Source of the DNA: Thraustochytrium sp. TN22
Lineage: Eukaryota; Sar; Bigyra; Thraustochytrida; Thraustochytriidae
NCBI GenBank assembly: GCA_013306675.1
Contig: JABLUY010000045.1
Coordinates: 62,001-126,000 of the forward strand
Direction: 5' to 3'
DNA: 64,000 nucleotides
Below are positions 283 through 42,542 of this stretch, piece after piece; positions within the stretch are counted from its first letter, which is position 1, and the number at the start of each line of letters is the position of its first letter. Made by a program: the position numbers and the translations under genes. A model generated the notes under the pieces. It was not told the origin of the DNA, did no database searches, and saw only the letters and a program-made list of their open reading frames with translations.

Positions 283-760
283 ATATCTCCGCCTCCTACT
301 CTCCATCAACGTGCACGCAAACATTCATCACCACATAAGTTAGCGCACGCTGCGCTGCATTGTGTTGTGCTGTGCTGTGTTGCGTTCCGTCGCGTGCTGT
401 GTGTATGCAATCACTCGGCCCTTTTGTGCGATCGCAAGGCCCAGTCTAGCTAGCACAATTCCTGGCACGCGAGGTGTCTCAGTCCCGTCCCGCACTTCAT
501 TTCATTCATAAAATTTCCCCCCAAAACATTTCAACGATGCTTATTTGCATGCTTGGTGGGTGATCAACGTGAAGGTAGGTGGAAGGGAGATGTTTGATTT
601 CCTTGCGCTTTTAGCACCCAGTCAGCCAGCTATGGCTAGTGACCGTACGTCCACCTGTCTGCCCACCTGTCTGCCAAGTGAGTAGGGTTGGACTGGGTAG
701 GAGGGTACCACTCGTTCTCTTCTCCAAAGAAGTGAGGTCAAGGCCAAATAGTTATTATTT
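283..760. other. Intergenic, between convergent aconitase and G-alpha genes
   Basis: This stretch should hold the 3' UTRs of both neighbours. It is less GC-rich than most of the window. It contains tgtgctgtgctgtg-type simple sequence near 364-382 and a short direct repeat of ccacctgtctgcc near 650-676. No gene or RNA was recognised. Confidence 0.6.
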
Positions 761-2909: not shown

Positions 2910-5900
2910 ATGCCGAGCGAGGGCAAGGAGGTCGACTGCGACGCGAGTAGCTACCAGCACATGATTGAGGATGAGACGAAGAACGACTCCATACTCATGC
3001 AAATGGTGAGCGATGCCTCGCGCCTGTCGAGAGCCATGAGCGGTGCTTCCACCGAGGTCGATACGCATACGTGGCATACGATGCGCACATCGAGGGAGAT
3101 GCCTGATTCGCCGCACTTGCGAAGCCACCTGACGCTCTCATATCTGACGGATGAGGTGATGACGCCGCCGGAGGCGACAACGCCGCACGAGACGGTCACG
3201 CCGCACGAGACGACGACGCCGCACGAGGCGACAACACCGCACGAGACGACGACGCCGAACGAGACGACGACGCCGCGCGATGCCAGAACGTCACGCGAGG
3301 CGATGACACCGCACACTGCAGGAGGAATACATGTGCCGGGAAACGTCACATCGAAGATTCCAGCAGAAGCCAAGTCCGACGAAGACAGCACGCCAGAGCA
3401 AGAGAAGGAGACAACGCCGAACGAAGCGCTTTCAAAACCCAGCCAGAGCCTGCTGCCAGTCATGGCTGACGGCACCAAGCTGAACGAGATCCGCGAACCA
3501 GCGCCTATTGGAGCAGAAAGCAAGACGGAGCCGGCGGCAAGTGTGACAAAGCGACAGAGTCATTCTGCAACTACCGTCGAGGACTTCAACGGGAGGTCAT
3601 TCAAGATGCAGCGGTCCAACACCGAGACACTGCTTGGCGCGAGCTTCAAGCAGCGGCGTGGAGGCCAACTGGTCCTGAATGACCGCGTGCAGTCATGCGC
3701 AATTCAGTCCTTCAGGAAGAAGCCCATGTCCATGACGGGGTACTCGCCAAATGTTCATGTGGTGGGCCAGTCACGGTCGTCCGGAGTTATCGGTCCGAAT
3801 GGCCGATTCGCTGCGCTGCAAGAAGGTGAGCAGGATGATGCGGTGTATGCCACGATGCAAGAGCAAGTCAACGAATTCAGCGTCAAAGACTTCCCAAAGC
3901 TCCTGTCTTTCGTGCCGCAGCAGCTCATTCCGATACTGCAAATCGAGGCGCCGCTGGAAATGTCATGCCACTCCTCGCACGCTCTGTTGATGCTGGCCGA
4001 CATCTCGGGCTTCACAGCGCTCAGCGAGCACCTCTGTACGCGAGGTCCAGAGGGTGTGGACGAGCTGTCGGAAATTATTAGCGATTTCCTCGGGGCGCTT
4101 GTGGAAATGGTCAAGGCGTATGCCGGGGACATTGTCGCCTTCGCCGGCGACGCGCTCATCATCACCTGGCCAATTGGCGAAGAGGAAGATCGCGTGAGGC
4201 AGACTCTCCGCGTCTTCAAGTGCGGTCTTGACTTGGCCGCCCTGACACGCCCGCAGCTCACGCTCCACATCGGTATCGCGTCCGGCGAGACGCACTTCAC
4301 CACGATCGGCGGCTTCAACGACACATGGAGCTGGCTCGTCATTGGTGAAGCCATCGTGCGCATGGGCGATGCTGAGGGCCACGCTAGCAGTAAGGAGGCT
4401 GTCGCTACGCTGGAGTCCTACGAGATCGTCAAGGAATACTGCTCGGTGGACATCATTGAGGAGACACGCGCTGACTCGCCTAACGCGATCGGACGTTTCG
4501 ATCGCAAGCGCGGTCTCGTTAGGCTCCTGGACGTGCGCAAATCCGGCGTATACCCCTGGCAGGTGAACACCGTGCTTCCGCAGCGTCCTAGTGGGTACTT
4601 TGATATGGGACCGCGAAGGAGCCGCCGATTGAGCAAGAGCATTAGCGACGCCAGCTCGCTCGTCTCGTGGTCGGAGGTGAACAACCCTGGAGAGGTGGCG
4701 CAGAAGCTCCTCTCCTTCTTGCCGGAGCCGGCTCTCGGTGTGCTTCGCGCAAGCGGGAACTACGTCAACGAGTTTCGGAACCGCATCTGTGTCCTCTTCA
4801 TGATGTTGGACGGCTTCCCATTGGATATTTACGATGGTGAGGGCGATGGCTGGGCGCTGTGCAAGATGTTTAATGACATCTTGCTCGACCTGCAGCGCGT
4901 CCTCTTCAGCTACAACGGCATGATGCGCCAGTTTCTTGTTGACGACAAGGGTTGCGTCTTCATCGCCTGCTTCGGTGTGGCGGGCTTCACGCACCGCGAC
5001 GACCCGCAGCGCGCCCTTGCGTGCGGGCTCAATATGGCCAAGGCTACGGCCAACCGCGGGATTCGCAGTTTCACGGGCCTTTCGACCGGCGCAGCTTTCT
5101 GCGGCGCAGTGGGGTCCAAGGAGCGCCGCGAGTACGCCATGGTGGGCCGTGACGTCAACCTGGCGGCGCGCCTCATGAGCTTAAGCCGCACGAAGGCAAC
5201 GCAAGGAGACCGCTTCTCCATGCTTATTTGCGACGAGGCAACCTACGCGGAAACAAGGGCGGATGCACCGGCGCGCTTCATCCCTAACGAGCTCGTGCGT
5301 CTCAAGGGCTACGAGAACATGATGCAAACCTACCAGTGCGAGCAAGTCGACGAGCGTCCCACGGCGAGCCGCGTCAGCGAAGAGATCTTGCCGCAGACCG
5401 TGCTCATTGGCCGCGCGCCGCAGATGGAGGCGATGCGCGACCTCGTTGAGAAGGCCGAGGACTGCGAGCCTGTTGTCTGCATGCTAACTGGCGACCCGGG
5501 CATGGGCAAGTCGCATCTCCTCGCTCATCTCTTGGAGGACCTCGACCAGGCGGGCGTCGCCACTGTGTACCAGCCTGCTCTCAGCACCGCTCAACAGACC
5601 CCATACGCCACGTTTCGTGGCATCTTCTGGCAGCTGCTTGAGCAGAGCGTGCGGCCCTCTCTTACGGACGAAGTTTCGATTGCAGCCAGAGAATCTGCCG
5701 AGACCCTTGAGACGCGCCACAAGGAGCTCTTCTTCGGCCTCATGGAGAGCGTCGTGACACAAGACGAGAAATACACGAGCGGCAGGCACTCGTACGCAGG
5801 GGCAGGATCGCTCCCAAGCACAACCCTTTCCAACATGGCTGACGAGCCGTCCCAGGCAAGCACGTCCCATCAAAGCCCGCACGCAGCAAGTTCTGGCGGC

Positions 5901-7922
5901 GCCGGCTCGCCTGCACCGCCCCGTCGTACCAGTAAGAGCTCCAGCGCGCTTGTTGGAGGGAACGGCAAACCAGCGAACCAGCAGGTCCAGCTCAAGCGTT
6001 CCGCAACAGGAAAGCTCGGCGGCGCTACGGATGGATGGGTTCGTGGAGAAAAGACCAACAAAGACACCAGCGAGGAGTTCGCAAGCATTAGTCTCTTTCG
6101 TGTCGCAGCAGGCCGCGCTGCTCGCCGACGCAGGAGCGACGTGGGCATGCCAACGCATGGGCAGCAGCAGCAGCAGGTCCAGACCCGCCAAGACGTTGGA
6201 GATATGCATGGCTCCTTCCTTGGGCGACCCATTGGGCACTCGAGCAAGAGCCTCGATGGCATGGTTGACGAGAACCTACTGGAGGAGCTGCGGGACGCGA
6301 GGAAGCTTATGCACACGGCTTCCTTGGACCAGCCAGCTCGTCGCAGCTTCAAGGCGGCTGAGTCACGTGGGAGCTTCAACAGCAGGACCACAACCGAACA
6401 GATGCGTACAGCGCGCCGCGACAAGCGCATCGAAAACTTTGCAGCCCCGCTCCTCTCGCAGGTGCTCAATGCCGCTTGGTCGCGTGACGCGGCGCGACCA
6501 CTCGCAGGTCAAGGCAAGGGCCAATCTGTCTTGAAGAGGCAGACCTCCTTCGATCTCGTCAAGGGCGCGGCGGCCCTCAAAGAGCGCCTTCGCAAGGTCC
6601 TGCACGGTCTTCTTGCGAGGTTTGAGGGAGCCGGTCGAAAGGTGGTCATCCTCCTGGATGACGCGCTTTTCGTGGACAGCATGAGCGGCAAGGCGCTGCG
6701 AGATCTGCTGGAGGTAGCGCCCGGCAAGGTCGTACTCGTCCTCGCGAGCAAGAAGGTGGTGCGCCTGCCGGAGTGGCTGGAGGAGATCGACAAGCTGTAC
6801 ACGATTCAACCGCAGCAGCTGCCGCCGCTGTCCCGCGAAGAATGCTTGCAGCTCATGTCCGGGGTGTTGGCCCTTCGCAACTTCAAAGGCCACGCCATCG
6901 AGTTCATCCTCGACCGCTCCAAGGGCAATCCAGGGCAGTGCGAGGAGCTGGCGCGCAGTCTGGCCGAGTCCGCCGACACAGACCTGGTGGAGAATAACAC
7001 ACCCAAGCTGCTCATCGAACGCGCCACACACGCGAGGCTAGACATGCTCCCGGACTCGCACCGCGCGTTGCTGAAAACGGCAGCTGTGATTGGGGACATC
7101 TTCTCCGTGGCGTGCTTGCGCGACATCGTGCCACGGAGCATCAGTCGGAAGGGGATTGAAATCCTCCTCCGCGTCCTCGAGGATTTGGTGCGCAGCGAGT
7201 GGCTCGACGAGGCCAAGATGGGCCTCATGGAGGAGCAGACCTACGCGTTTCGCTCCCAGCTGGCACGCGAGGTATGCTACAACCTAAATCCGTCGCGCCA
7301 CCTGAAGCTGCTCCACCTCGCGGTGGCGCAATTCTACCAAAAGCGCTTCAACGACGACCTGCGCCCATACTATGCAACACTGGCTACGCACTATCGCAAG
7401 GCTCACAATGATGCGGTAGCGCTCGCCTATCTGTTGCGCGCCTTCGAGAACAACATGAGCATAGGCGCCCTGCCTGAGGCTTACATGACTCTCGAGACGG
7501 TCTGCGCGCTGCGCCTGGGTCGCGAGAAGCTCCTGCCTGCGCTCTCGTCCATGAAGGCCGTCGTGGGCGAGTATTGCGACATTTGCTTCGAGGACCACGA
7601 CAATCCGTTCGCTTCCGGCGGGGACGCCCTTTCCTTTCGCAACGCGTCACAATCCATCAACAGCACAGCGGCCTCTTATCGTAGTAGGGCGCGGTCCTCG
7701 TTTTCACGAAGCAGCCACGCGCGCTACGGTGTCACGGCGCTCATGAGCAAGATCGAGCTTGCCCGCAAAGACATCCACCTCACGCGCTACAGCGAGACAC
7801 ATATCGTAGCTTCCGACGCGGGAAGCCCGCCGGAGGATTACGCTCCAAGTGTCGCACCGCATGAGCTGCTGCGGCCGCACGACGAGCACTTGGAGCGCTC
7901 CAGAATGTGCTCCATTTCATGA
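2910..7922 (+). CDS. Soluble-type (ADCY10-like) adenylyl cyclase with ATPase module
   Basis: A 1670-residue protein with the ADCY10 layout: two class III cyclase domains, a P-loop ATPase and a long helical C-terminus. The start at 2910 (MPSEGKEVD) is preferred; an in-frame Met at 2823 is the alternative. Residues 85-130 hold a Thr/Pro/His/Glu tandem repeat (TTPHE units). Cyclase domain 1 begins LMLADISGFTAL with metal ligands Asp364 and Asp414 (FAGDAL). Domain 2 (about 620-770) carries GRDVNLAARLM, the Asn/Arg catalytic segment, but its first metal site reads MMLDGF and is divergent. Walker A is GDPGMGKS (861-868) and Walker B is VILLDDA (about 1246); a Ser/Gln-rich insert of roughly 250 residues lies between them. 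No membrane segment was seen. Mammalian soluble cyclase responds to bicarbonate and calcium, not G proteins; whether that holds here is unknown. Confidence 0.9.
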   Translation: MPSEGKEVDCDASSYQHMIEDETKNDSILMQMVSDASRLSRAMSGASTEVDTHTWHTMRTSREMPDSPHLRSHLTLSYLTDEVMTPPEATTPHETVTPHETTTPHEATTPHETTTPNETTTPRDARTSREAMTPHTAGGIHVPGNVTSKIPAEAKSDEDSTPEQEKETTPNEALSKPSQSLLPVMADGTKLNEIREPAPIGAESKTEPAASVTKRQSHSATTVEDFNGRSFKMQRSNTETLLGASFKQRRGGQLVLNDRVQSCAIQSFRKKPMSMTGYSPNVHVVGQSRSSGVIGPNGRFAALQEGEQDDAVYATMQEQVNEFSVKDFPKLLSFVPQQLIPILQIEAPLEMSCHSSHALLMLADISGFTALSEHLCTRGPEGVDELSEIISDFLGALVEMVKAYAGDIVAFAGDALIITWPIGEEEDRVRQTLRVFKCGLDLAALTRPQLTLHIGIASGETHFTTIGGFNDTWSWLVIGEAIVRMGDAEGHASSKEAVATLESYEIVKEYCSVDIIEETRADSPNAIGRFDRKRGLVRLLDVRKSGVYPWQVNTVLPQRPSGYFDMGPRRSRRLSKSISDASSLVSWSEVNNPGEVAQKLLSFLPEPALGVLRASGNYVNEFRNRICVLFMMLDGFPLDIYDGEGDGWALCKMFNDILLDLQRVLFSYNGMMRQFLVDDKGCVFIACFGVAGFTHRDDPQRALACGLNMAKATANRGIRSFTGLSTGAAFCGAVGSKERREYAMVGRDVNLAARLMSLSRTKATQGDRFSMLICDEATYAETRADAPARFIPNELVRLKGYENMMQTYQCEQVDERPTASRVSEEILPQTVLIGRAPQMEAMRDLVEKAEDCEPVVCMLTGDPGMGKSHLLAHLLEDLDQAGVATVYQPALSTAQQTPYATFRGIFWQLLEQSVRPSLTDEVSIAARESAETLETRHKELFFGLMESVVTQDEKYTSGRHSYAGAGSLPSTTLSNMADEPSQASTSHQSPHAASSGGAGSPAPPRRTSKSSSALVGGNGKPANQQVQLKRSATGKLGGATDGWVRGEKTNKDTSEEFASISLFRVAAGRAARRRRSDVGMPTHGQQQQQVQTRQDVGDMHGSFLGRPIGHSSKSLDGMVDENLLEELRDARKLMHTASLDQPARRSFKAAESRGSFNSRTTTEQMRTARRDKRIENFAAPLLSQVLNAAWSRDAARPLAGQGKGQSVLKRQTSFDLVKGAAALKERLRKVLHGLLARFEGAGRKVVILLDDALFVDSMSGKALRDLLEVAPGKVVLVLASKKVVRLPEWLEEIDKLYTIQPQQLPPLSREECLQLMSGVLALRNFKGHAIEFILDRSKGNPGQCEELARSLAESADTDLVENNTPKLLIERATHARLDMLPDSHRALLKTAAVIGDIFSVACLRDIVPRSISRKGIEILLRVLEDLVRSEWLDEAKMGLMEEQTYAFRSQLAREVCYNLNPSRHLKLLHLAVAQFYQKRFNDDLRPYYATLATHYRKAHNDAVALAYLLRAFENNMSIGALPEAYMTLETVCALRLGREKLLPALSSMKAVVGEYCDICFEDHDNPFASGGDALSFRNASQSINSTAASYRSRARSSFSRSSHARYGVTALMSKIELARKDIHLTRYSETHIVASDAGSPPEDYAPSVAPHELLRPHDEHLERSRMCSIS

Positions 7923-8045
7923 GCCGGTAATCTGAAATTTTGAGAAAGCAAGAGTATCATTTCACATGGTCAATCAATCAGTGTCCGCCCGTCACGCAGA
8001 CGGACGAGAAAAAAAACAATTCCCTTGCGGGGCCCGGAAGGGAAC

Positions 8046-10160
8046 TCACCGCCAGCTCGGCACGGGATCGTCCCCGAAATCGGGAGAGGCGGAGTCCAGG
8101 TCTTCGACCGCGGTGAAGGGGCGCGCCACACAAATCGGCCCGTTAAAGCCGTGCTTGATGCTGAAGCGAACGCGCTCGTAGCGGCCGCGCTTGTCGCTCC
8201 AGCGCCAGGATGCGCCATCGCGGTCTTTCACCCAGCGCGGAATGGAGTCGCCGCGTGAGCGCACTTGAAGCGAGGCGCGAACCGTGGATGTACGCCGCCG
8301 GGCCGGCCAGATGCTCGTGCGGTGAATAAGCGTGTCCTTGCGCTCCACATGGTTCTTTTGCTGCTCCTGCTGCCGCTGGTGCTTGGCGGCCGTCGTGGAT
8401 TCACGGCGCAGCATGTTGGCAATCGTGGGAAAGCGCACGCTAGGCAGGCTGCGGCGCCGAGTCCTGCGCTGGCCAGCGTCCTCCTCCGCCTCCGCCTGCG
8501 CATCGGCCGCCGCTGCGGCCGCCGCCTCCTTTTCTTCCTCCTCCTCGCGCTCGACGTCGTCACTGCTGACGTGGTGGCGCGATTTGCGGTGGCGGTGGCG
8601 ATGGCTGTGGTGGCGGCTGCTGCTGCTGCTGCCGCGGCGCGACCGAGGGGAAGAAACAGCGCGGTCGTCCCACTCGTGCTCCTCCGGATCATCGCCCACT
8701 TCATGGCCTCGCTCCTCCAGCTCCTCCAGCTCCTCCTCCTCTTGGAGGCGAGCAAGATCATCGCTTTGACGGGCGTGGCGGCTGCTGCGGCTGCTGCGGC
8801 TACTGCGCTGAGTGCCGCTCGAGTATGATGCAGCACGGGCACGCGTGCCGCCGCCACCGCCGCCGTCGGCCTCGTCAAAGTCGTCCTGCGAGGAAACTGC
8901 GATGGTGGAAGCGCGACGGTGGCGGCGGCGGCCGCCGTGGCGCGCAGCACGAGCCTCCTCCTCCTCGCAGGCCGCAGCGAAGGCCTCTTCGGTAAGCTTG
9001 ACACGACGTCCGCCCGCGGATGTTAAGCGGCGCGAGCGGTGGCGGTCCTTGATGGTGGCGGGGGCAGCAGCGGCCGTAGCACGCTTACTGCGCCGCGGGG
9101 ACGCGGCCGGCGAGGCCAAGAGGCTAGGCGCTTCGTCGGCGGGCGCGGACATGGAGCGATGGCGAGAGAGTCGAGAAGCGTGGGCGAAGTCCTCGGTGGA
9201 GGGCTCTTCCGCGAGTGAGGTGGCCCGTGAGGAGCGGCGCGCGCGCGACCCATTCCGGCGGGCACGAGAGAGGCGGCGGAATTCGTTCTCCATGATCTCA
9301 GCTGTGTCGGGGTCCAGGGCCTTGGCGCGGCTCGAGAAGGCAGCACCCTGGGTGTCAGAGGAGACGAGGTCGGGGTCGGCCTCCTCGGAGTCGTAGTCGG
9401 AAAGGTCGAAGCGGCCGCTGCGCGACATCTCGATGGAACCTTGCAAAAATTCATCGCGCAACTGCTCGAGCTTGAGACGCTCCTCACGCGACAGGTCGAT
9501 GCGGTACTTGTCTTCGGGCAGCCTGGCCACGATCTCCTCCAGGTCGATGTCCTCGTCGAGGGCCAGAACCGCGCCAACGAGGCGCAGCACTTCGTTGTAC
9601 AGATCCTCGCGGATCTCCCTCTTCTCGTCATCCGTAAGAGTAACTTCACACGGGAGGGCTGGGATGCGTGCATGAGAGGCAAGAATACGTGCCTGCATGA
9701 GAGACTTGGACAGGGCCTCGCGGTTCTTGTACAGGTCGATCGCCGCCGCCACGAGGCGCTCCTCGAAAGTGAGGTGGTGCAGCGGGTGGCGCTTCTTGAG
9801 CCGCAGCTCCTGGAAGGGGGCACCAAACTTCATGCAGTTGAGCGCCTCGGCGCAATTGGGGCGAGTCAGGTCGTTGTACGGGCGCATTTTGGCGTCGAAC
9901 TCCTCCGCGTCCATGTCCCAGGCGCACAGCAACGAACGCTTAACGCCGAAGCGAATCACCGTGCGCTTATTGAGCACGTCAAGCTCGCTCTTGTACGAGA
10001 AGATGAGCTCCGTCCACTCCTGGTTGTGGCGCCAGATCTCCTCGCGCTGCGTCTGGTGCTCGGCCTCGCCAGACACGCACCCATCGCATTGGCCCACTCG
10101 GTGCGTGTGGAACTCCACCGCCGCTGCCGCCATGCTGCCGGACGAGGCCAGGCCGGGCAA
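8046..10160 (-). CDS. Conserved-looking protein of unknown function, Ser/Arg/His-rich
   Basis: 704 residues that I do not recognise; a second start lies 27 bases in (MAAAAVEF). The first 240 residues look globular and mostly helical, with a Cys/His cluster near the N-terminus (HTHRVGQCDGC) and the phrases WTELIFSYKSELDVL and HHLTFEERLVAAAIDLYK. Residues 240-600 are low-complexity: charged, Ser/Arg-rich, with a His/Arg tract (SRHHSHRHRHRKSRHH), acidic runs and an alanine run, suggesting a disordered nuclear or RNA-associated region. The last 70 residues are again ordered-looking and aromatic-rich (PRWVKDRDGASWRWSDKRG). Codon use and frame length support a real gene. It is convergent with the adenylyl cyclase, only 123 bases apart. 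Confidence 0.75.
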   Translation of the reverse strand: MPGLASSGSMAAAAVEFHTHRVGQCDGCVSGEAEHQTQREEIWRHNQEWTELIFSYKSELDVLNKRTVIRFGVKRSLLCAWDMDAEEFDAKMRPYNDLTRPNCAEALNCMKFGAPFQELRLKKRHPLHHLTFEERLVAAAIDLYKNREALSKSLMQARILASHARIPALPCEVTLTDDEKREIREDLYNEVLRLVGAVLALDEDIDLEEIVARLPEDKYRIDLSREERLKLEQLRDEFLQGSIEMSRSGRFDLSDYDSEEADPDLVSSDTQGAAFSSRAKALDPDTAEIMENEFRRLSRARRNGSRARRSSRATSLAEEPSTEDFAHASRLSRHRSMSAPADEAPSLLASPAASPRRSKRATAAAAPATIKDRHRSRRLTSAGGRRVKLTEEAFAAACEEEEARAARHGGRRRHRRASTIAVSSQDDFDEADGGGGGGTRARAASYSSGTQRSSRSSRSSRHARQSDDLARLQEEEELEELEERGHEVGDDPEEHEWDDRAVSSPRSRRGSSSSSRHHSHRHRHRKSRHHVSSDDVEREEEEEKEAAAAAAADAQAEAEEDAGQRRTRRRSLPSVRFPTIANMLRRESTTAAKHQRQQEQQKNHVERKDTLIHRTSIWPARRRTSTVRASLQVRSRGDSIPRWVKDRDGASWRWSDKRGRYERVRFSIKHGFNGPICVARPFTAVEDLDSASPDFGDDPVPSWR

Positions 10161-12047: not shown

Positions 12048-14119
12048 TTATGGCAACAAGGCGGCCTTCCAGTCGTCGAGGAGCTGATAGGCGATCTCGA
12101 CGACGAGGACGCGGTGGGCGTCCTCAGCCTGCTTGGCGAGCTTGGTGACGACGGCGAAAAGGTTGTGCTCGAGAACGAGGTGCTCAAGGTCCTGGTGGTG
12201 CTCGCCGATGATTTTGAGGATCTTGAGGAGATTGATGCGGACCTCGGCCTTGGGGAAGCTGAGGCGCGCGACGAGCTCGGCCATGAAGAGGCCGGAGCGG
12301 CCGATGGCCTCAGAGAGCCTGGCGGAACGCGTGAGCATGAGCAGGAGCTCTTTGACGTAGTTCTCAAAAGCACCGCCCTGCGCGGACTGGAAGAGCGTGA
12401 CGAGGCATTGCAGGGAGCGTGGCCGGAGCACGGCGCGCTCGACCTCGGGGCTGGCGTGTGTGAGCCAGGCGCCGAGCGAGATGAGCGCCTTCTCCTGCCA
12501 GAAGACGTCGCCGGACACGAGCAGGTCAAGGTAAAACTCGAGCGCCTCGCAGCGCCAGAGCTGGTCGCGCGTGAGGTCGGAGGTGTGCGCGAAGTCGGTG
12601 AGGATCTGCAGCGCGAAGGTTTTCACCGGGCTGCGCGTCGCGACAGCGTCCATCAGGTAAGGAATGATGCCGGAGATGGCGGCCTGCTCCTGGCGCGAGC
12701 GGCTCAGCCGGCACAGGTAGAACATGGCGAGCATGACGAGGTTCTGGATCTCCTTGACGAGCTGCTCCTGCGAGGCGCTGAGCAGGCGGCCCGGCACGAA
12801 GGAGTTGTTGCGCCGCCGCCGCCCCGGCCCGTTGCCAATGGGGCTGCCGCCACCGTGGCCACCGTGGCCGCCGCCGTCGCCCGCGCCGCCTCGCTTGGGC
12901 GAGCCGCCGGCCTTGGCGCGGGCCAGCTTGCTCATGGAGGAGCAGTAGGCCAAAAAGGGCACAAGCGTGGGGATGGCGCCAGCCGCCTCGAGCGCGTCCA
13001 AGACCGAGGGTTCCATGGTGAGGTTCTTGATGCACTTGAGCAGCGTCTTGATCAGCGGGCCGATCTCCTCCTCGCCGAGCGCCACGTTCCCAGAGCGGCC
13101 CACGTCGGGCGTCTCGGGGCGCGGCGCGGCCGACCCGCGGCCGCTCGTCAGATGGCCCAGGGAGGCGGGCTGGAAGAAGGGCGCCTCGAGCGCCAGCGTG
13201 CGCAGCATCCCCTCCAGCACGGAGGTGTCGGCGAAGTGCTGCTTGACGACGCTGTCACCGTGCGAGAAGACGAGCAGCGTCTCGCAAATGTCCATGATGA
13301 GGCTGGACGCCTCGAAACCTAGTTTCGCGCACTCCGCCTCGCCGCGCGGGCTGCGGCAGTGCTCCAGGAGCGCGACGAGCTGGCGCAGGACGCCTTCCTT
13401 GGCGAAGAGCCGGCAAAAGTCGTTCTTGGGGATGGTGCCGCGGCCCGAGCCTAGCGCGCTGAGGTCGAAGACGCGCTTGATGCCCTCCACCGCGACGCAG
13501 GCCAGCGCGATGTCCGGCACCTGCTGCTGGCCCACGCCGAGCGCCGCGCGGAAGTGCGCCGTCTCCGGTGTCTCCTCTGGCGTCGCGTAGCACGGCACCA
13601 GCAGGCCTGCCAGCACGGGCAGGCCGCCGCACGCCACGAACATCTGCAGCGTGACGCCGCTGGTCTTGAGGAACTGCCGCACGAGCGAAGCCGCCTGCAA
13701 CCGGATGGGCCGGCTCACGGACGGACGGCAGAACTTGGCAACGATGGGCACAAGGCCCGCCAGCGAGAGCAGCTCCTGGAACTCGCGGTCATTCTCGATG
13801 ATCTGGCCCACCACCTTGAGCACCGCGTGGAGCACCTTGGTGTTGGACATCTCAAGCATGTCCATGATGGGGATGACGCCGTGGTGCGTCAGCAGCGTGC
13901 GCCGCTGCGCCGGCTGCTCGCGGAAGAGCGTCGTCAGCTTCGCGCACGCGCTCAGCACCACCTCGTCGTCCTGGTCTGGCCGCAGCAGCGAGATGAGCTT
14001 CTCTACTTGCTGCGAGTGCCGCGCCTCCAGGGAACGCCCGGCGTCCTCCACAAAGTCGCGCTCGTCGTCCGCATCCTCGAAAAACTCGTCCAGAAATGGG
14101 TCCGCAGGCTCCTCCTCCT

Positions 14120-14162
<43 letters not shown>

Positions 14163-16076
14163 ACCACCATACAGGGCGCCGGACTTGCCGCTGCCAGGGC
14201 CGCCCTCGCCGTCCTGAGCCACCGTCATCCGGCGCCGTAGCACCTCCAGCACATCCGAGCCGGCCGTGTCGGTGCGCGACGAGAGCGACCGCGAGCTCTC
14301 GCCCATGCCACCGCCCACGCCAATGTCCATGAAGTCCTCCTCGGCGTCCTCGTCCTCGCGAAAGCGCGCCAGCCGCGACTCCAGGTTCTGCGTGCCCTGC
14401 TCGCGCGAAGGCTTGAGCTCCTGCGCCAGCGGCTTCACGTCCGCGTCCTCGCCAAAGGCGCCGTCCAGGTCGTCCATATCCACGTCGCCCACGCCCGCGC
14501 CCACGCCCACGCCCAGGTCTCCGGCCTGGGCCTGCCCGCGCACGCTCGACATCTTGCCACTGTTGCGGCTGCCCATCATGGCGCGGAACTGTTCGCGCAG
14601 CTTCTGGCCCACGGCCGGGTCCTCCACGTCGTCGAAGCCAAAGTCCAGCTCGTCCGAGTCGTCATCCTCGTCGTCCTCATCCTCATCCTCGTCGCGCGCG
14701 TCGCCGCCCTCGTGCGACGCGCGACGGGCCACAGCCCCTGGTTTGGCCTCCGGGTCGCGTCGCGAGCGCTGGCGCTCCCGCCCGCGACTCGCAGCGGCGC
14801 GTAGGTCGCTCTGGTCCCACTTGCTCCAGTCCTCATCGCCCGCATCGTCCCCCGCGCCGCCCTGGTCCTCCCGCTGCGACTGTCTGCGCTCCGTCTCGGC
14901 CTGTGCCGCCGCGAAGCCGGCGGCGCGCTGCGCTTCCGACAGCTTGATGGTATTCATGACGGACTTGCGCCAACGCGAGCGCTCCTCGGAGACGCGCTTC
15001 GAGGCGCGGCTCAGGCGCTTGCTCGTGCGCCGGCGCGCCTTGGCCGCCTCGTCATCCTCCTCGTCATCGTCCAAGAGGCCCAGGTCATCGCCGGCGGCGG
15101 CCGCTGCGCCGTCCACGCCAGCCTCGTCGCCGCCAACGGCGTCGAGGGCAGCGTCCAGGTCCAAATCGTCGCCCGCGGCACCCGCCGCGAGCAGATCTTC
15201 GGCACCGTCGCTCGAGATGGCCCCGGCCTCGTCCAGGTCCTCCGTAAACTGTTTCTCCGACACGCCGCGAGTCTTTTGCACCCAGCGGTGGCGCAGCAGG
15301 TCCTTGGCGGTGCTGCGGAGGCGCGGCTCCTTCTTGAAGCACAGCAGGAGGAACTCGCGCAGCGCCGGGCTCAAGCCCTCGGGCAGGGGCGGGTGCTCGT
15401 CCTGAACGATGCGATAGAGCGCCGCCATGGGCGGGCTGTCAAAGTATGGAGGCTTGAGCGTGAGCAGCTCGATGATGGTGCAGCCGACGCTCCAAATGTC
15501 GCACGCTGTCGTTGGGCCCGAGATCTCGATGATCTCCGGCGCCATCCAGTACGGCGTGCCCACCACATCGTTGCTCTGCGCCGACGTGTGCGTGGCAACG
15601 CCAAAGTCTGCCAGCTTCACCAAGCCCTGCTTGGTTGTCAAGATGTTGGCGCCCTTGATGTCGCGGTGGATTACGCCCTGGTCGTGCAGGTAAGCCAGGC
15701 CGTTGAGCACCTGCCGAATATAGAGCGCGCACAGGCTCTGCGAGAGCGCGCCAAAGAGCTTGAGGTTGCGCGCCAGCGACCCGTTCTCCATGTACTCGAG
15801 AATAATGTGCAGGTGGTCATGCGTGCGCACCGTATCAATGTACTTGACAATGTTGGGGTGGTCCAGCTTCTTGAGCAGCGAGACCTCCTCCTCGATCAGC
15901 CGCAGGCTGTCCTTGTTCAGGTTCCGCAGCCCAATGCGCTTCACCGCCACCGTCTCGCCCGTTTCCGAGTTGCGGCACGCGAACACCGTGCCGAAGCCGC
16001 CTCGCCCGATCTCCTCTCCCAGCGTGTACTTTTCGCTGATCTTTTGCCCCGGCCGCGACCCGCCATGGTGCACCAT
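12048..16076 (-). CDS. STE11-type kinase with Armadillo-like tail (MAP3K-epsilon/Cdc7/SepA-like)
   Basis: A 1342-residue Ser/Thr kinase. The N-terminal kinase domain (about 16-275) is complete: Gly loop GRGGFG (24-29), Lys46 in VAVK, HRD at 137-139 within VIHRDIKGANIL, DFG at 157-159 and the activation segment VVGTPYWMAPE. This combination and the position at the very N-terminus match plant MAP3K-epsilon, Dictyostelium SepA and yeast Cdc7, which act in septation and cell-division signalling. Residues 275-700 are acidic, Ser/Arg-rich and disordered, with a glycine run from a GCC/ACC repeat near 14130-14170. Residues 700-1335 form an Armadillo/HEAT-like helical array (for example LLTHHGVIPIMDMLEMSN), as in the plant and amoebal relatives. 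All catalytic residues are present. The role in cytokinesis is inferred from the family. Confidence 0.92.
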
Positions 16077-34865: not shown

Positions 34866-37800
34866 ATGGACGCCGAGGAGGACGGGACACAGCAGGCGCA
34901 GAGCGGCGCGCCGCGCGAGGCGCGGCGGTTTGAGCAGCTGGTGGCGAGGTATGACCTCGAGGAGGCGCTCTGGCTCGTGGACGCAGGCGAAGTCAAGGCT
35001 GACTACCGCTGCGCGGGCGGCGAGACTCTGCTCAGCAAGGCCGCCGGCGCTGGCGACCTGCGCGTCGTGCAGGCGCTGCTGCAACACGGCGCCGACCCAG
35101 CTGGGATTAATCATGGCGGCAGGTGTGCGCTCATGAAGGCCGCCGCCGGCGGGCACGACCGCATCGTCGAGGCGCTGCTGCGCACGAACGCCGTGGACGT
35201 CTTTCGCCGCGACGCCTCCGGCAGGTCGGCGCTAGACTGGGCGCGCATGGCGAGACACAAGACATGCGCGCACATGCTCGAGCTCGCCATCAACGAGCGT
35301 GTCGTCGGCCAGCGCCGCAGGCTTGCCGACGCTGCGCGACGCGAGAAGCTCGAGGCCAATGTGTTCGCGGAGAACATGCGTCTGGCAGCTGCCATGCGCG
35401 ACCTGGTTCGCTCAAACGACCTTGAGGAGATCTACACGCTCGTGGTCGAATGCACGCTCTCTCGGCCTACCTTCGAGCGCGCGGTGCGCGAGCGTCACAA
35501 GCTCGTGGACCGCGCCGAACAAGACAGTGACCCTGACACCCGCCAGCGGTCTCGGGAAGAGGAAGACTCGCGACGACGGAATACTCCCAAGCAAGATCGC
35601 GCGGCTACAAACGCCCCGCCAGCGTCGCAAACGCCCGACCTCTCCGAGCAGTATTACGTGAATGCGCAGATCGAAGGCGGCATGAGCGCCCTGCACCGCG
35701 CCGCCGCAGCCAGCCACCTGGAGCTCCTCGGGCTGCTCATTCACCACGGCGCCGAGGTCGACCTCGCGACGCTCACGGGCGACCATCACACACCGCTCAC
35801 GTGGGCCGCGGCGTGCGGCCAGTACGAGGCGGTGCGCGCGCTCATCGTGCAGGGCGCGAGTCTGGAACACAGGACGCGCGGCGACGCCAAGACTGCGCTC
35901 ATGCACGCAATCGTCAACGGCCACAGCCGCATCGCCATGCTCATCGTTGACCACGCCCTGGACTTGGCCATGCGACAGCACGGAGACCTGCTCGCTGCCG
36001 TGGATGTCGAGACGACCGACCTCGATGGCATCGAAAGGTACAAAGACTGGAGCACGTTCTTTCTGGATCTCATGCGCGCGCAGGACGCGCGTGGCCGCGA
36101 CGCAGCCGAACTCGCGCGCCTTGCTGGGGACACGGAGGTGCAGGAAGTGCTCGGAGAGGCCGTGGACCGCGTCGATGCCCGCAAGGCGCGCCTCCAACAC
36201 GAGGCTGATGTCAAGGCGCCGAAAGCGTGCAGGAACGGCTGTGGGTTTCATGACCGCCCTGACCGCCTCCTGCGCCACGAGCAGTGGGCCTGCCCGAAGC
36301 GCATCTTGCAGTGCGAGCGCGAGTGCGGCGCTCAGGTTCCGGTGTCTGAGATGGAAACGCACCTGCGCGATGCCTGTCCGCGGCGCATCGTCCTCTGCAG
36401 CAACGTATACCTCGGGTGTCGTACCAAGCTCACCCATGCGGAGATGCATGCCCATGAGACCCACAAGTGCGAGTTCCGTACCCGCAAGTGCCGCCTGGAC
36501 TGCGGCGCCCAGTTGCAGCACCGCCACCTTGCGGAGCATGAGAATGCGGACTGCGAGCTGCGGGTGGTGCAATGCAACACGACATCCACGCACGAGGGCT
36601 GTGGCGAGTACATGGAGTGGCACCGTCTGGCGCCACACCGGCAGCACGCCTGCCCCAATCGCTGGGTCACCTGTCGCGTGGGCTGCGGTCTGCGCTTGCG
36701 CTATGTGGAGCGGAATCAACACGAGGACGAAGTCTGCCGTCAGCCCTGCTCGCTCGGCTGCGGTGTGGTCCTTGGCCCGCTCGACCGCCGCCAGGTGCAC
36801 GAGCGCCACTTTTGCCACCTTCGAATCGTGGCTTGTCGTCATCAGTGCGGGACGCCAAAGATTCAGGCGCAGAACATCGCAGCGCACGAAGACGGCCAGT
36901 GCGAGCGCAGACCTGTCCCGTGCCCACTGGGCTGCGGCGAAACCATGGAGGTACGCCACGTGCACGCGCATGTCACCAACGAGGCCGGCACTTGCCCAAA
37001 CCGCATGCTGCCCTGCCTGCTGGACTATGTGGGTCGCCGCGTGCGCTTTGACCAGGGGCGGCAGGTCGGCTTCGTACTCTCCTTCGACGCAGAGACCGGC
37101 CGACACCGTGTTCGCCCTGCGCAAGACGGCCGAGCCATCGTTGAAGCAGTCCTGGGTGACCCGAACGGCGCCCTGCGCGATGCGGAGGCCATCGACCTGC
37201 CTGGTTGGACCTGTGGCACGATGCGCGCAGCGGACCGTGAGCGCCACCTCGGCACGACGTGCCCAAAGCGCAAGATGGAGTGCCCAAACAGCTGCGGCCA
37301 GGTCATGCTCGAGGAGCAGCTGCCCGTGCACCTCGCGGAGGGCTGCGTGCGCCGCGTCGTGACCTGCCGCAACGCCGGTTGTGACACCGAACTCCTCCAC
37401 TGCAACCTGTGGAGGCACGAAAACACGGAGTGCCAGCACCAAAAGGCCAAGTGCTCGTGCGGAGAGTGGATCGACAAGATCGCGCTTGCCTCGCACGCGG
37501 TCAGAGAGTGCGAGGCGGCCAAGGTCCGCTGCCTGCTGGGCTGCGGCGCCTACGTGGAGCGCAGGGACATGGAGACGCACCTCGAAGCCGCGTGCCCGAA
37601 ACGCGAGGTCCAGTGCCGCTTCGGCTGCGGCATCGAGCGCATGTGGGCCGAAGAGCAGCCTCGCCACGAGGGCGAGGACTGCGCGCTGCGCGTTGTTGTC
37701 TGCCCACTGTGCGCCGCGGAGTGCGCCTATCGCGACCTTGACGCGCACGGTCGAGACCTGTGCCCGCGGCGACCTGTGGTGTGCGAGTGCGGCCAGACCC

Positions 37801-40800
37801 TCCCGCTGGACGAGATCCCGCGGCATGAGGCCACCCTGTGTCCCAAGCGCAAGCGCTGGTGCGCGCTTGGATGCAAGCAGCGCATCCCGGACGACGAGAT
37901 GGAGGAGCACGAGGCAAGTCAGTGCCCGAACCGAGTCGAGGATTGCCGGCAAGGCTGCGGGATGGCCGTACGGTGCAGCCAGCGGCCGGTGCACGAGCAG
38001 ACAATCTGCCGGCGGCGGCCCATGGCGTGCCCGAACAAGTGCGGCGACATTCTGCGCGCCGAGCAAATCGACGAGCACCTGCGCACCTGCTTGTTCCGTA
38101 AGTTGCCGTGCGGGTCCGAGAGCGCGGCTTGCACGCGCAGCCTTCATGCATGGCTTACGGGCGACGTGGCTCGAGGCGCGGCGCGCCTGGTGTTGTGCGA
38201 GGAGCACCAGGAGACCTGCCTCAGCTTCGCTTGCGCCAACGGCGAGCTGGCACTCGTGCAGACCATCTTGGCGCACGTCGAGAACCTGCCGCGCGAGGCG
38301 TACGAGGTTCCCCTCGACCGTGCGGAGGAGGCGCGTCGCAAGCGCGAGCAGCTCGCCGACATGCTGGCGAAGGAAAGCCGCGTGGGGCACTCGCCTGTAA
38401 CGCGCGCTTGCGCCCGCGGCCATCTCGACGTTCTCAAGGTCCTCATGGAGCGCGGCGCCGATCCGAACCGCGAGACTTCGCGCGGCCGCACCGCCTTGCT
38501 CGAGGCGATCATGCACGGCCACGTCGACGTCGTGGCCCACCTGATTGAGGAGGGCGTTTCGGTGGATCGGCCCAATTGTAATGGGCTCGAGCCCGCTCCG
38601 CTGGCGCGGCGACTCGGCAACAGTACGCTGGTCAACATGCTGGAGGAGGCGAGCCGCTTCCGTCGCGACCTCGGCGCACTCTTTCGTCACATCATGCTGG
38701 GCAAAATGGAGTCCCTGGACGATCTCCTGGCACTCGGCGAGCCGCACTTTGCAGATCAGCAGACCATCCTGAAGACGAACTGCAGAGACTTGGAGGCGCG
38801 TCTTGCGGACCTAGAGGTGGAGATCACGGATCTTGAGACGCAAAAGGAGGCCGCGATGCCAGGCTTCGAGCGTCGTAGTGCGCAGCTGCGTGAGGTCATG
38901 GCAGAGGCGGACGCGCTACGCGCCAACACTGAGGCCCTCGAGGCAGAGTGCGCCGCGCTGGAGGAAGAAGGCATCGAGCCGCTCGTGAGAGCCGCCACGC
39001 GCAGCCTTCAATACGTGAAGCCCGTGCACGTGCGGAACCTGGACACCATCTCGGAGCCGACACCGGCCATGCATCGCATCATGCAGGCGGCCTGCACATT
39101 GCTGGAGCTCGAGCCGCTGCGCGAGCGGGACCGAATGCGCTCCAGCATCCTTGTGGAGAACTACTGGAAAGTCGGTCGCCAGGAGCTGCTGCGCGACCCG
39201 CACCTGAAGCGAAGGCTCATGCTGCTGCTCGGGGCGGGTCGCACCGAGGAGCTCGCCGTGCAGCGCTGCGAAGGGCTCTTGGAGCAGATTGATGCGGACC
39301 TGGTCGAGGCCGGGTCGAGCTTTGACACGCTCTGCAAGTTAGCCACGCGGACTTTGGCGGACTCTGAGACCAAGGAGGAGGAGGCGCGGCGCAAGCACAG
39401 TGAGGCGCTTGCGGCGATGCGCGCCCGAGTGGCAGCATTGGAGGCAGAAGGCAGCGGAGATGAAGAAGAGGGCGGGGCCGGAAAGGCGCTGCGCGACGGA
39501 ACAGAAAACGGGAAAGAACGGCATCCGTCTTCGGGCGCAAGCGATGACGAACAAAACGATAAGGAGTCTGAGGACGAGGACGAGGACGAGGACGACATGC
39601 AGCTGCTCCACGCGCTCAGCATTTGGGCGCATGCCGTGGTCACCAAGCACAAGGTCACGACCGAGTCCGTTGCTCCGAAGCGACGGGCGGTGAGTGCGAT
39701 GCGCGGCGATCTCAACAAATTGCAGCTCCGCGTGGAAGAAGCGGAGCATAACGCGCGCTTCGCGGAGAGCAAGGTTTTGGCCGCGTCGGTGCCTCTGGAG
39801 GACGCCTTGCAGGAGAAGGAGCGCTACACCCAGGAGCTGCACGACAAGCGGGCGCAACTGAGTTGCGTGCGGCTCCTCTCCGCCCGAACGCCGGCCGGCC
39901 ATACGGCGCTCTCGTGGGCGGCCACGTATGGCGACGTGCGAGTGGCTGACCTCCTGCTGGACCGCGGCGCCGCGGTGGAGTATGAGGACGAGCAACGCGC
40001 GCTTGCCGCGGAGCTGATCCAGGTCGCGACGCGGCACCACCAGCGGCGCAAGCGACGGCCGTCGTGGACACGTTCGCTGGCTGCACAGTTTCGAAACGAG
40101 GACCTGGTGGCGCTCCTTCGAGTCAAGTCTCTGGCCAGGCAGCACCGGCGTTGGCGGCAGTCAACGCGCAGCCCGCTGGCGCAGGCGCTCTACAACGGGC
40201 ACGTGGAGTGCGCGAAGCTGCTGCTGCGCCACGGCGCCATGTCTCATCGCGAGAGCCCGGTGCTGCCCGTGGGCCCTATTCCGTACCGCTTCCCAACACC
40301 GTGGGATCGCGTGAACGCGCGCTTTTTACGCGGGCACGCCACGGTATATGCGGTGGAGGAGCTGCGCGAGGAGGAGATGACGCGCCTGCGACTCCTAGGC
40401 CACGATATGGACGACCTCCCTGAGGAGCGACGGCCGCTGCGCTCGATGCTGGACGCGGCGCGCGCAGGCTTGCAATTCCAGGCGCGCGCCGGGTGGAAGC
40501 ACGGCGTCGGGTGGACCGGCGTCGGGCCAAACGCAGAGACTGTGCAGCTGGCCGAGGAACTGGAGCAGCGCGCCAAGGCGCGCAGGCTGGAACTGCAAGA
40601 GCAGGACCGGCAGCGCAAGGAGCGTGCCGCGGAGATCGACAAGGTGAAGCGGCTGAACGCTCGCCTGGCCTCTGCGGTCCTGCGCGAGGACTTCGAGAAC
40701 GTCGCGCTGGTCGTAGAGCTTGGCGCTTCAGTGGACTTCGAGCTGGACGAAGGCCACACGGCCCTCACGTATGCGGCGTGGCGCGGCACGGAGTCGACCA

Positions 40801-42542
40801 ACAAGGATGGCGAGCGCGTGCTGGCGGTGGAGCTTCTGCTGGACCTCTCGCTGAAGGCGCCCAATGTGAACCGTGAAACCTCGCTTATGCACACGCCGCT
40901 TTCGATGGCTAGCAAGGCTGGCCGCATCAACGTGATGGAGGCCCTGCTGAAGCGCGGCGCAACGCCAGACGCCGTGCTGCAGGACGGCAAGTCCGCGCTC
41001 ATCCATGCTGCGGCCGCTGGCAAGTGGGAGGCATGCCGGCTACTGCTGGAGCACGGCGCGGATCTTGACCGGAAGGACGTCCACGGGCGCACGGCGATTG
41101 AGCGCGCGCGCGACGCGAACTTCGTGGAGGTGGTGCGCCAGCTCTCACAGGTGCGATACGGCAATATGGGCCGCGCCGTGGCCCAGAGGGGGCAGGCGAA
41201 CGAGGTGGTCATTTGCGGCTGGGGCTGCGGCGCAAAGCTTCGCGTGCTGCCCAAGTCACACTTTTCGCGCACCAAGACGCGCGCGGAGATTGAGAGCGAG
41301 GAGGATCCGAACTTTGTCGTCTACCACGAGACGCACCTGTGCCCCAAACGGCCTGCCGAATGCCCTTACTCGTGCGGTATTCAGCACATGTGGGCGGAGG
41401 AGCTCGAGGAACACATGGGCGAGGAGTGCCCGAACCGGCCGGCCGTTTGCCCGCGCGGGTGCGGCACGCAGGGCGTACAAGCGCACAACCTGCAGCGGCA
41501 CATGGACCGCGACTGCATGAAGCGTCGCATTCCATGCCTGCGATGCGACGCCTCGGTGATTTTGGAGAAGATGCACTTGCACGATACGTCGGACTGCCCC
41601 ATGCGGCCGCAATCGTGTGAGAATGGCTGCGGCGCGGTGCTGCCGTGGAACAAGTACTCGGAGCACCGGCGGTTGCTTTGCCCGGACCGCGCAGTGCGCT
41701 GCCGCGTGCCTGGCTGTGGCAAGGAGCTGGCGGCGCACCAGCGAGACGCTCACGAGCAGCTGCGCTGTAGCCTGCGCATCGTCAAGTGCCGGTGGGAATG
41801 CGTCGACGGCGTGCGGTACCAGGACCGTGTCGCACACGAGCTCAAGACGTGTCCGCGGCGGCCCGTGCCATGCCCGAACAAGTGCAGGGCGCATGTGGAG
41901 GCGCGCAGCCTGGCGGAGCACCTGCGCAAGGACTGCGTGCGGCGATTCGTCAAGTGCGAGGCCGGTTGCGGGCGCAAGGTCCCGCACGCGGACATGGAGA
42001 CGCACATGGACACCGAATGCGCGGAGCGCGTCATGTGGTGTCCGAACTTCGGATGCCCGCTGTCAGACACGTATGAGGGCCCTCAGGCGCGCCTGGACGA
42101 CCGCCTGCGGCAAAAGGACCTGCGCCAGCACCTGGAGGAGGAGTGCGAGCGGCGGCTGGTCACGTGCGCCCGCGGGTGTGGCGAGCGCGTCCCGCTCGTC
42201 AAGCTCGAGGAGCACAAGGAGCTTACCTGCATGAAGCGCGAAGTATGCTGTCGTGTGGGATGCCCGAAGCGCATGCCCATGGACGAGCTGGAGACGCATG
42301 AGAAGTACGAGTGCCGCAAGCGCGTCGCGTGGTGTGGCTTAGGCTGTAACGCCACGATGCCTGCGGACAAGCTCAAGCGCCACGAGCGGCGCGAGTGCCC
42401 AAAACGCATCGTCCTGTGCTCGCTTGGCTGCGGCGAGGAGGTGCGCGAGGAGGACCGTGTGCTGCACGAGACTGCGGAGTGCATCCGCCGCTCGGCGGCG
42501 CCAGCGCCGCGAGACTTTGTGGGATCTGCCAAGAAGAAGTGA
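34866..42542 (+). CDS. Giant ankyrin / TRAF-like zinc-finger / dynein-stalk-like protein
   Basis: 2558 residues in one exon. Domains in order (residues): ankyrin repeats (about 50-140 and 270-370); 20 TRAF-like zinc-finger repeats (451-1082), each C-x2-GC then H-x3/4-C followed by xR; ankyrin repeats (about 1109-1259); a coiled-coil region (1259-1669); ankyrin repeats (about 1669-2090); 14 more zinc-finger repeats (2112-2545). Zinc finger 10 of the first array is split by a Tudor-like insert (about 717-779, VGRRVRFDQGRQVGFVLSFD). In the coiled-coil region, TPAMHRIMQAACTLLELEP, WKVGRQELLRDPHLKRRL and LSIWAHAVVTKHKV with VAPKRRAV follow the order of the dynein heavy-chain stalk, with an acidic low-complexity insert between. 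No motor, membrane or catalytic motif was seen. The start at 34866 (MDAEEDGTQQ) is preferred over open sequence upstream. Function unknown; a large scaffold linking cargo, zinc-finger partners and perhaps microtubules is inference. Confidence 0.85.
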   Translation: MDAEEDGTQQAQSGAPREARRFEQLVARYDLEEALWLVDAGEVKADYRCAGGETLLSKAAGAGDLRVVQALLQHGADPAGINHGGRCALMKAAAGGHDRIVEALLRTNAVDVFRRDASGRSALDWARMARHKTCAHMLELAINERVVGQRRRLADAARREKLEANVFAENMRLAAAMRDLVRSNDLEEIYTLVVECTLSRPTFERAVRERHKLVDRAEQDSDPDTRQRSREEEDSRRRNTPKQDRAATNAPPASQTPDLSEQYYVNAQIEGGMSALHRAAAASHLELLGLLIHHGAEVDLATLTGDHHTPLTWAAACGQYEAVRALIVQGASLEHRTRGDAKTALMHAIVNGHSRIAMLIVDHALDLAMRQHGDLLAAVDVETTDLDGIERYKDWSTFFLDLMRAQDARGRDAAELARLAGDTEVQEVLGEAVDRVDARKARLQHEADVKAPKACRNGCGFHDRPDRLLRHEQWACPKRILQCERECGAQVPVSEMETHLRDACPRRIVLCSNVYLGCRTKLTHAEMHAHETHKCEFRTRKCRLDCGAQLQHRHLAEHENADCELRVVQCNTTSTHEGCGEYMEWHRLAPHRQHACPNRWVTCRVGCGLRLRYVERNQHEDEVCRQPCSLGCGVVLGPLDRRQVHERHFCHLRIVACRHQCGTPKIQAQNIAAHEDGQCERRPVPCPLGCGETMEVRHVHAHVTNEAGTCPNRMLPCLLDYVGRRVRFDQGRQVGFVLSFDAETGRHRVRPAQDGRAIVEAVLGDPNGALRDAEAIDLPGWTCGTMRAADRERHLGTTCPKRKMECPNSCGQVMLEEQLPVHLAEGCVRRVVTCRNAGCDTELLHCNLWRHENTECQHQKAKCSCGEWIDKIALASHAVRECEAAKVRCLLGCGAYVERRDMETHLEAACPKREVQCRFGCGIERMWAEEQPRHEGEDCALRVVVCPLCAAECAYRDLDAHGRDLCPRRPVVCECGQTLPLDEIPRHEATLCPKRKRWCALGCKQRIPDDEMEEHEASQCPNRVEDCRQGCGMAVRCSQRPVHEQTICRRRPMACPNKCGDILRAEQIDEHLRTCLFRKLPCGSESAACTRSLHAWLTGDVARGAARLVLCEEHQETCLSFACANGELALVQTILAHVENLPREAYEVPLDRAEEARRKREQLADMLAKESRVGHSPVTRACARGHLDVLKVLMERGADPNRETSRGRTALLEAIMHGHVDVVAHLIEEGVSVDRPNCNGLEPAPLARRLGNSTLVNMLEEASRFRRDLGALFRHIMLGKMESLDDLLALGEPHFADQQTILKTNCRDLEARLADLEVEITDLETQKEAAMPGFERRSAQLREVMAEADALRANTEALEAECAALEEEGIEPLVRAATRSLQYVKPVHVRNLDTISEPTPAMHRIMQAACTLLELEPLRERDRMRSSILVENYWKVGRQELLRDPHLKRRLMLLLGAGRTEELAVQRCEGLLEQIDADLVEAGSSFDTLCKLATRTLADSETKEEEARRKHSEALAAMRARVAALEAEGSGDEEEGGAGKALRDGTENGKERHPSSGASDDEQNDKESEDEDEDEDDMQLLHALSIWAHAVVTKHKVTTESVAPKRRAVSAMRGDLNKLQLRVEEAEHNARFAESKVLAASVPLEDALQEKERYTQELHDKRAQLSCVRLLSARTPAGHTALSWAATYGDVRVADLLLDRGAAVEYEDEQRALAAELIQVATRHHQRRKRRPSWTRSLAAQFRNEDLVALLRVKSLARQHRRWRQSTRSPLAQALYNGHVECAKLLLRHGAMSHRESPVLPVGPIPYRFPTPWDRVNARFLRGHATVYAVEELREEEMTRLRLLGHDMDDLPEERRPLRSMLDAARAGLQFQARAGWKHGVGWTGVGPNAETVQLAEELEQRAKARRLELQEQDRQRKERAAEIDKVKRLNARLASAVLREDFENVALVVELGASVDFELDEGHTALTYAAWRGTESTNKDGERVLAVELLLDLSLKAPNVNRETSLMHTPLSMASKAGRINVMEALLKRGATPDAVLQDGKSALIHAAAAGKWEACRLLLEHGADLDRKDVHGRTAIERARDANFVEVVRQLSQVRYGNMGRAVAQRGQANEVVICGWGCGAKLRVLPKSHFSRTKTRAEIESEEDPNFVVYHETHLCPKRPAECPYSCGIQHMWAEELEEHMGEECPNRPAVCPRGCGTQGVQAHNLQRHMDRDCMKRRIPCLRCDASVILEKMHLHDTSDCPMRPQSCENGCGAVLPWNKYSEHRRLLCPDRAVRCRVPGCGKELAAHQRDAHEQLRCSLRIVKCRWECVDGVRYQDRVAHELKTCPRRPVPCPNKCRAHVEARSLAEHLRKDCVRRFVKCEAGCGRKVPHADMETHMDTECAERVMWCPNFGCPLSDTYEGPQARLDDRLRQKDLRQHLEEECERRLVTCARGCGERVPLVKLEEHKELTCMKREVCCRVGCPKRMPMDELETHEKYECRKRVAWCGLGCNATMPADKLKRHERRECPKRIVLCSLGCGEEVREEDRVLHETAECIRRSAAPAPRDFVGSAKKK

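Follow-up and report, generated by a model that had tools for sequence, protein, structure and literature searches.

A predicted dynein-stalk-like hairpin set between ankyrin repeats in a giant protein without a detected motor from Thraustochytrium sp. TN22

The stretch of DNA analysed here, referred to as the window, comprises 64,000 nucleotides of one contig of Thraustochytrium sp. TN22 (C393:62001-126000), the genome being a draft of 37.9 Mb in 453 contigs. Positions 34866-42542 on the plus strand form a single open frame without a stop, which encodes a protein of 2558 residues that combines ankyrin repeats and TRAF-type zinc fingers with a central region resembling the stalk of dynein heavy chains. 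The dynein likeness of this region is confirmed, its homology to the dynein stalk is well supported and its fold reasonably supported. With moderate confidence, we take the region to be a divergent inner-arm dynein stalk and tip, held as a hairpin by ankyrin repeats in a motor-less protein that would serve as a passive microtubule tether or crosslinker. An initial annotation, made without database searches, had proposed a motor-less dynein stalk in an ankyrin/TRAF scaffold, and this interpretation is supported by the present analysis.

The homology was detected in several ways. A phmmer search of the PDB with residues 1259-1669 returned 14 matches at E<=10, 13 of which are dynein heavy chains. 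The best is 8glv_Me (E 2.7e-10), and the stalk of DNAH1, 8i3j, has an E of 2.2e-7. Some of the 13 are generically or wrongly named, but a genuine dynein stalk used as query also matched every one of them at E<=1e-20. A hidden Markov model (HMM) was made from the 18 near-full-length dynein stalks of the genome. This stalk HMM gave 36.2 bits for the whole protein and 46.8 bits for the region alone, compared with 9.0 bits for the best of 996 shuffles and 9.6 bits for the reversed region (12.3 bits for its best domain). A tip-only profile, from which the long coils were left out to exclude coiled-coil bias, scored the protein at 24.1 bits (E 2.9e-5, 15,000 proteins assumed). When 768 frames of the window and of two further loci were scored, two other tip-bearing proteins alone ranked higher (64.3 and 34.9 bits), and the next frame reached 5.3 bits. 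Profile-profile comparison yielded a probability of 87% (E 3.9e-6) with 13 of the genome's own stalks and of 62% (E 7.4e-5) with 18 own tips. The dynein-stalk-like character claimed for the centre of the protein was thus recovered by PDB phmmer, the stalk HMM, the tip-only profile and the profile-profile comparison alike.

The dynein homology extends over the ascending helix and the succession of H1, flap and H3 in the tip. The elements of the region are as follows (the seeded model is an AlphaFold2 prediction described below; pLDDT, predicted local distance difference test).

38739..39008, plus strand: ascending helix, CC1-like (residues 1292-1381), with the conserved dynein proline P1372; stalk HMM, seeded-model helix 3-92
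39063..39101, plus strand: tip helix, H1-like (residues 1400-1412); phmmer to 8glv_Me and 2rr7, seeded-model helix 111-123 with pLDDT ~67-73
39117..39161, plus strand: flap-like hairpin (residues 1418-1432); seeded-model strands 129-132 and 140-143
39162..39194, plus strand: tip helix, H3-like (residues 1433-1443), with W1434 and the basic R1438 at W+4; alignment, seeded-model helix 144-154
39198..39359, plus strand: divergent H4/H5 region (residues 1445-1498); helices in the seeded model, HMM match ending at residue 1452
39360..39599, plus strand: acidic insert in the tip, 80 residues (1499-1578) with a net charge of -18; composition
39603..39680, plus strand: return helix, H6-like, with VAPK (residues 1580-1605); return limb at 13-16 bits with the stalk HMM, identity to dynein fragments
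39681..39878, plus strand: descending helix, CC2-like (residues 1606-1671), with EKERYTQ like dynein GEKxRWT; alignment, seeded-model helix 284-382

P1372 is followed by a segment matching 'xPPxGV', by helix H1 (EPTPAMHRIMQAACTLL), by an insert at the flap position, and by H3. Further on, H6 is represented by LSIWAHAVVTKHKV, in which W1587 is retained, and then by VAPK, so that the blocks follow the dynein order CC1, H1, flap, H3, H6, VxPK, CC2. The initial annotation, too, had described its segments as standing in dynein order; its assignment of TPAMHRIMQAACTLL to the stalk base has to be revised, as this segment is tip helix H1. In the stalk HMM alignment, the flap-place insert is also present in the genome's own dyneins C51, C405, C406, C157, C17 and C398a, and the position of R1438 is occupied by K or R in 15 of the 18 own dyneins. 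H1, flap and H3 are the supported elements of the tip, H6 is supported more weakly, and H2, H4 and H5 have no separate support. The distance from the VxPK proline to the glutamate of the descending helix is 46 residues (P1604-E1650) versus 74 (P227-E301) in own dynein C406, which makes the descending limb 28 residues, or four heptads, shorter on this alignment.

The closest of the genome's own dyneins are C406, C51, C157 and C405. C406 itself is closest in the PDB to DNAH12 and DNAH7, with DNAH3 slightly lower; DNAH3 and DNAH12 are dyneins of the DNAH7 kind. DNAH7 is described as a monomeric inner-arm dynein whose flap contacts the neighbouring protofilament (PMC6629372). In a phylogenetic tree the region grouped with nine own dyneins (support 86/85), six of which carry a flap-like insert and three of which are without it. 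The insert between H2 and H3 that characterizes the flap class aligns with that of six own dyneins, and it forms a hairpin in the seeded model. The source of the stalk was probably an inner-arm, flap-bearing axonemal dynein; the long branch of the region (6.84 versus a median of 0.62) and the low support are the reasons why the source is given only as 'probably inner-arm'.

Relatives were also sought outside eukaryotic genomes. In three scans of viral contigs, no relative of the respective query is encoded by any of 87 candidate stretches obtained with the region, or of 69 and 248 obtained with own dynein stalks. When four own dynein stalks were used as queries against bacterial and archaeal genome contigs, 2 of 108 candidate stretches were found to encode dynein. 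These are L061 (NYVR01000135.1, a Planctomycetota metagenome-assembled genome) and L062 (JAIYDP010000205.1, a Verrucomicrobiaceae metagenome-assembled genome), in which the dynein heavy chain sequence is eukaryotic and most likely reflects contamination of the records. The H6-like segment is 36% identical to the L061 fragment and 18% identical to the L062 fragment.

Microtubule binding, register clamping, partners and cell location are what we infer for the protein. The ankyrin repeats would fill the place of the AAA ring and grip the antiparallel helix pair at its base; this grip would fix the helix register and so preset the affinity of the tip. The predicted tip would attach laterally to a microtubule, and partners would be bound by both finger arrays and the remaining ankyrin blocks. 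The protein would in this way tether or crosslink microtubules passively, possibly those of a flagellum. The 18 near-full-length dynein stalk matches in the genome make a motile flagellum very likely, and a flagellar site is therefore possible.

It is conceivable, and the most serious of the competing explanations, albeit an unlikely one, that a stalk derived from dynein has lost microtubule binding and now acts as a rigid spacer or a protein-binding hairpin. Such a loss would be in keeping with the HMM match that ends in H4, with the 80-residue acidic insert in the tip, with the retention of 18 of the 44 columns that are conserved in at least 15 of the 18 own dyneins, and with the long tree branch. 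However, the tip is best retained from H1 to H3, a part that contains two of the three helices facing tubulin in dynein, the tip-only HMM still gives 24 bits, and W1434, the basic residue at W+4, W1587 and VAPK have all been kept. A more far-reaching variant of the ankyrin-held tether, which we regard as rather improbable, would turn the ankyrin solenoid into an ATP-free switch: tension or partner binding on the repeats that clamp the stalk base would shift the helix register and thereby the grip of the tip, resulting in a mechanosensitive or ligand-gated microtubule clutch. That the acidic insert adds self-inhibition by mimicking the acidic tail of tubulin is kept as speculation only, because part of the insert, near its end (39570-39595), is a tandem repeat of the hexanucleotide GAGGAC.

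Structure prediction with AlphaFold2 without relatives gave two long helices, and the tip was not resolved in the absence of dynein sequences from the alignment. In the seeded model the alignment includes dynein fragments, which makes it partly circular; it adds the tip and the flap hairpin to the two long helices, and its best Foldseek match is the DNAH1 stalk (E 4.1e-7). The pLDDT of the seeded model is 93-97 over model residues 11-70 of the ascending helix, dropping to ~65 distally, and 85-98 within residues 1606-1671 of the descending helix; it lies below 50 over residues 1479-1501 and 1531-1565. The predicted fold is thus an antiparallel two-helix coiled coil. The initial annotation had expected such a coiled coil with a small helical tip, and the long-helix pair indeed matches dynein stalks, but the tip appears solely in the model seeded with dynein.

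Several results weigh against a dynein origin. PF12777, the stalk family in which the initial annotation had expected a match, was not reported by Pfam hmmscan for the whole protein or for the region, and a genome-wide PF12777 search (E<=10) listed 21 places, the stalk-like region not being among them; by Pfam's own criterion the region is therefore not filed as a member. As this family is blind to the region, PDB phmmer and profiles from own dyneins were used instead, and with profiles other than PF12777 the similarity to dynein stalks is significant. Foldseek with the unseeded model returned 105 matches at E<=10, none of them at E<=0.001, with Rad50 in the first row; after VIA re-ranking the DNAH1 stalk came out on top, with unrelated coils close behind. 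Finally, the segment proposed as the return helix, together with VAPK, could be matched to dynein H6/VxPK, but the return limb alone is weak (13.4-16.1 bits with the stalk HMM versus 12.3 bits for the top-scoring domain when the region is reversed). This score is barely above that of the control, and the assignment of the descending limb thus leans mainly on the motif order W...VAPK...EKERYT.

An ordinary coiled coil, similar to dynein by composition and chance, would be compatible with the silence of PF12777, with weak matches to coiled-coil families that remain below the cut-off (e.g., Fez1, E 6.5e-4), and with the scores of the reversed region. This explanation is already disfavoured and, in our judgement, very improbable: the 24.1 bits of the tip-only profile were obtained without long coils, whereas unrelated frames among the 768 do not exceed 5.3 bits, and the blocks follow the dynein order. 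A phmmer search of the PDB with the tip alone was weaker (9 matches at E<=1, 5 of them dynein) but also ranked the dyneins 8glv_Me (E 3.3e-4) and 2rr7 (E 0.012) at the top. The two observations that, according to the initial annotation, would speak against its proposal did not arise, since profile similarity to dynein is present and a pair of long helices matching dynein stalks is predicted, with a tip in the seeded model.

From the N- to the C-terminus, the protein consists of two ankyrin blocks, the first TRAF array, a third ankyrin block, the stalk-like region (residues ~1292-1671), two further ankyrin blocks and the second TRAF array.

34866..42542, plus strand: 2558-residue ankyrin/TRAF-finger protein with a dynein-stalk-like core; open frame
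35019..35267, plus strand: ankyrin block 1 (residues 52-134); Pfam Ank_3 52-78, Ank_KRIT1 56-134
35691..35963, plus strand: ankyrin block 2 (residues 276-366); Pfam Ank_2
36228..38090, plus strand: TRAF-type finger array 1 (residues 455-1075); Pfam zf-TRAF, Cys/His pattern
38403..38642, plus strand: ankyrin block 3 (residues 1180-1259), the final repeats before the stalk; Pfam Ank_2 and Ank (residues 1140-1300 scanned)
39897..40238, plus strand: ankyrin block 4 (residues 1678-1791); Pfam Ank 1678-1708, Ank_2 1738-1791
40695..41141, plus strand: ankyrin block 5 (residues ~1944-2092); Pfam Ank 2040-2071, similarity to further ankyrin genes in the genome
41361..42482, plus strand: TRAF-type finger array 2 (residues 2166-2539); Pfam zf-TRAF, Cys/His pattern

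The TRAF-type zinc finger family PF02176 scores 212.7 bits against a gathering score of 27, and the ankyrin families PF00023 (152.7 versus 21.1 bits) and PF12796 (207.5 versus 27.3 bits) are likewise above theirs; the stalk lies between ankyrin repeats. No AAA motor was detected, in agreement with the initial annotation: the 12 Pfam families listed for the whole protein (E<=1) comprise no AAA or dynein heavy chain family, and the AAA+ ring and linker that define a dynein heavy chain were not found by the Pfam scan. When the genome was searched with the whole protein, a second gene of like make-up was not found among 21 matches, the best 18 of 435 candidates scored. Within one finger of the first array, residues 716-784 (~37011-37217) form a long insert (VGRRVRFDQG...GRHRVRP) that by eye resembles a Tudor/SH3-like barrel and has no significant Pfam match.

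A hidden intron in the acidic insert was looked for and is not supported: with a simple splice-motif list, the sole in-frame candidates around the insert are 48 and 105 nucleotides long and have poor acceptors. Misassembly, a gene-model chimera or a pseudogene, for which a draft genome of 453 contigs and a gene model read from DNA alone leave some room, is scarcely probable in view of a single frame of more than 2,500 codons, ankyrin repeats that restart in frame 7 residues past the descending stalk helix, the lack of better intron candidates around the acidic insert, and a stalk that shares only 26% identity with the own dynein it matches best and is therefore no recent copy.

Like the 2558-residue protein, two further proteins of the genome contain a dynein-like tip outside any detected motor. 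In C22 (L009, G000:C22:199000-208999; frame 2-7351, minus strand) the tip occupies residues ~727-901 (PF12777 E 1.2e-12; own-dynein HMM 64.4 bits). A scan of 2450 residues of this frame detected no AAA motor but showed IQ motifs and, more weakly, abhydrolase and SAM matches. In C353 (L010, G000:C353:140500-150499; frame 3226-9999, plus strand) a tip-like segment at residues ~490-610 scores 32.9 bits with the own-dynein HMM, with PF12777 below the cut-off (E 6.2e-4); the scanned part of the frame showed WW domains and, more weakly, TPR and p25-alpha matches, but no motor domain. In contrast to the ankyrin/TRAF protein, the PF12777 match of both leaves out the long coiled coil, its first model position being 93 or higher, and the partner domains are different. 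The tips in C22 and C353 suggest reuse of motor parts rather than a single accident, and the dynein tip may be a reusable module in this lineage, with three proteins lacking a detected motor. C416 (L063, G000:C416:98500-108000; 2519-6829, minus strand) was rejected as a fourth case, as its 20.4 bits are below the cut-off, the own-dynein HMM did not find it and Pfam hmmscan of the frame was blank.

Elsewhere in the window, 12051-16076 (minus strand) encodes a protein kinase with weak ARM-like matches, presumably of a make-up like that of the Fused/STK36 kinase of motile cilia, and 2823-7919 (plus strand) encodes a class III cyclase domain accompanied by matches to AAA_16 and NPHP3-like NTPase, a combination that we take to be like soluble adenylyl cyclase. 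The antisense frames 35415-38747 and 40247-41275 have no Pfam match at E<=0.01, and the window contains no Rfam family at gathering score and no tRNA.

With ankyrin proteins and TRAF-type zinc-finger proteins, the protein shares both repeat families, well over the Pfam cut-offs; no dynein-like insert is known to us in such proteins, no database of eukaryotic proteins having been searched. The initial annotation had envisaged a new kind of scaffold, and an ankyrin-stalk fusion was indeed not found in an open-access paper library, but this is thin evidence for novelty. Inner-arm axonemal dyneins (DNAH1 stalk 8i3j, dynein-c tip 2rr7, DNAH7 tip 6rza) have the same order of CC1, H1, flap, H3, H6, VxPK and CC2, together with the flap-like insert and the predicted long-helix pair, whereas the region differs from them in the lack of a detected AAA ring, a shorter descending limb, divergent H4/H5, the acidic insert and a base set in ankyrin repeats.

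The nearest parallel is a laboratory construct. The dynein stalk is a hairpin off the AAA ring in which sliding of CC1 and CC2 sets the affinity of the tip, and this affinity is fixed when the base of the stalk is held in seryl-tRNA synthetase (PMC6629372; PMC7042235); the SRS-MTBD chimera consists of the dynein tip and 12 stalk heptads fused to this enzyme (PMC6629372). In both cases a dynein stalk is gripped, or would be gripped, at its base by a non-motor globular protein that could set its register; the difference is that the 2558-residue protein is natural. It would be the natural counterpart of the chimera, with stalk and tip retained and ankyrin repeats in the position of the ATPase ring. 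It would represent one route by which evolution reuses motor parts, and would permit a direct test of whether a dynein stalk is able to bind microtubules stably and passively.
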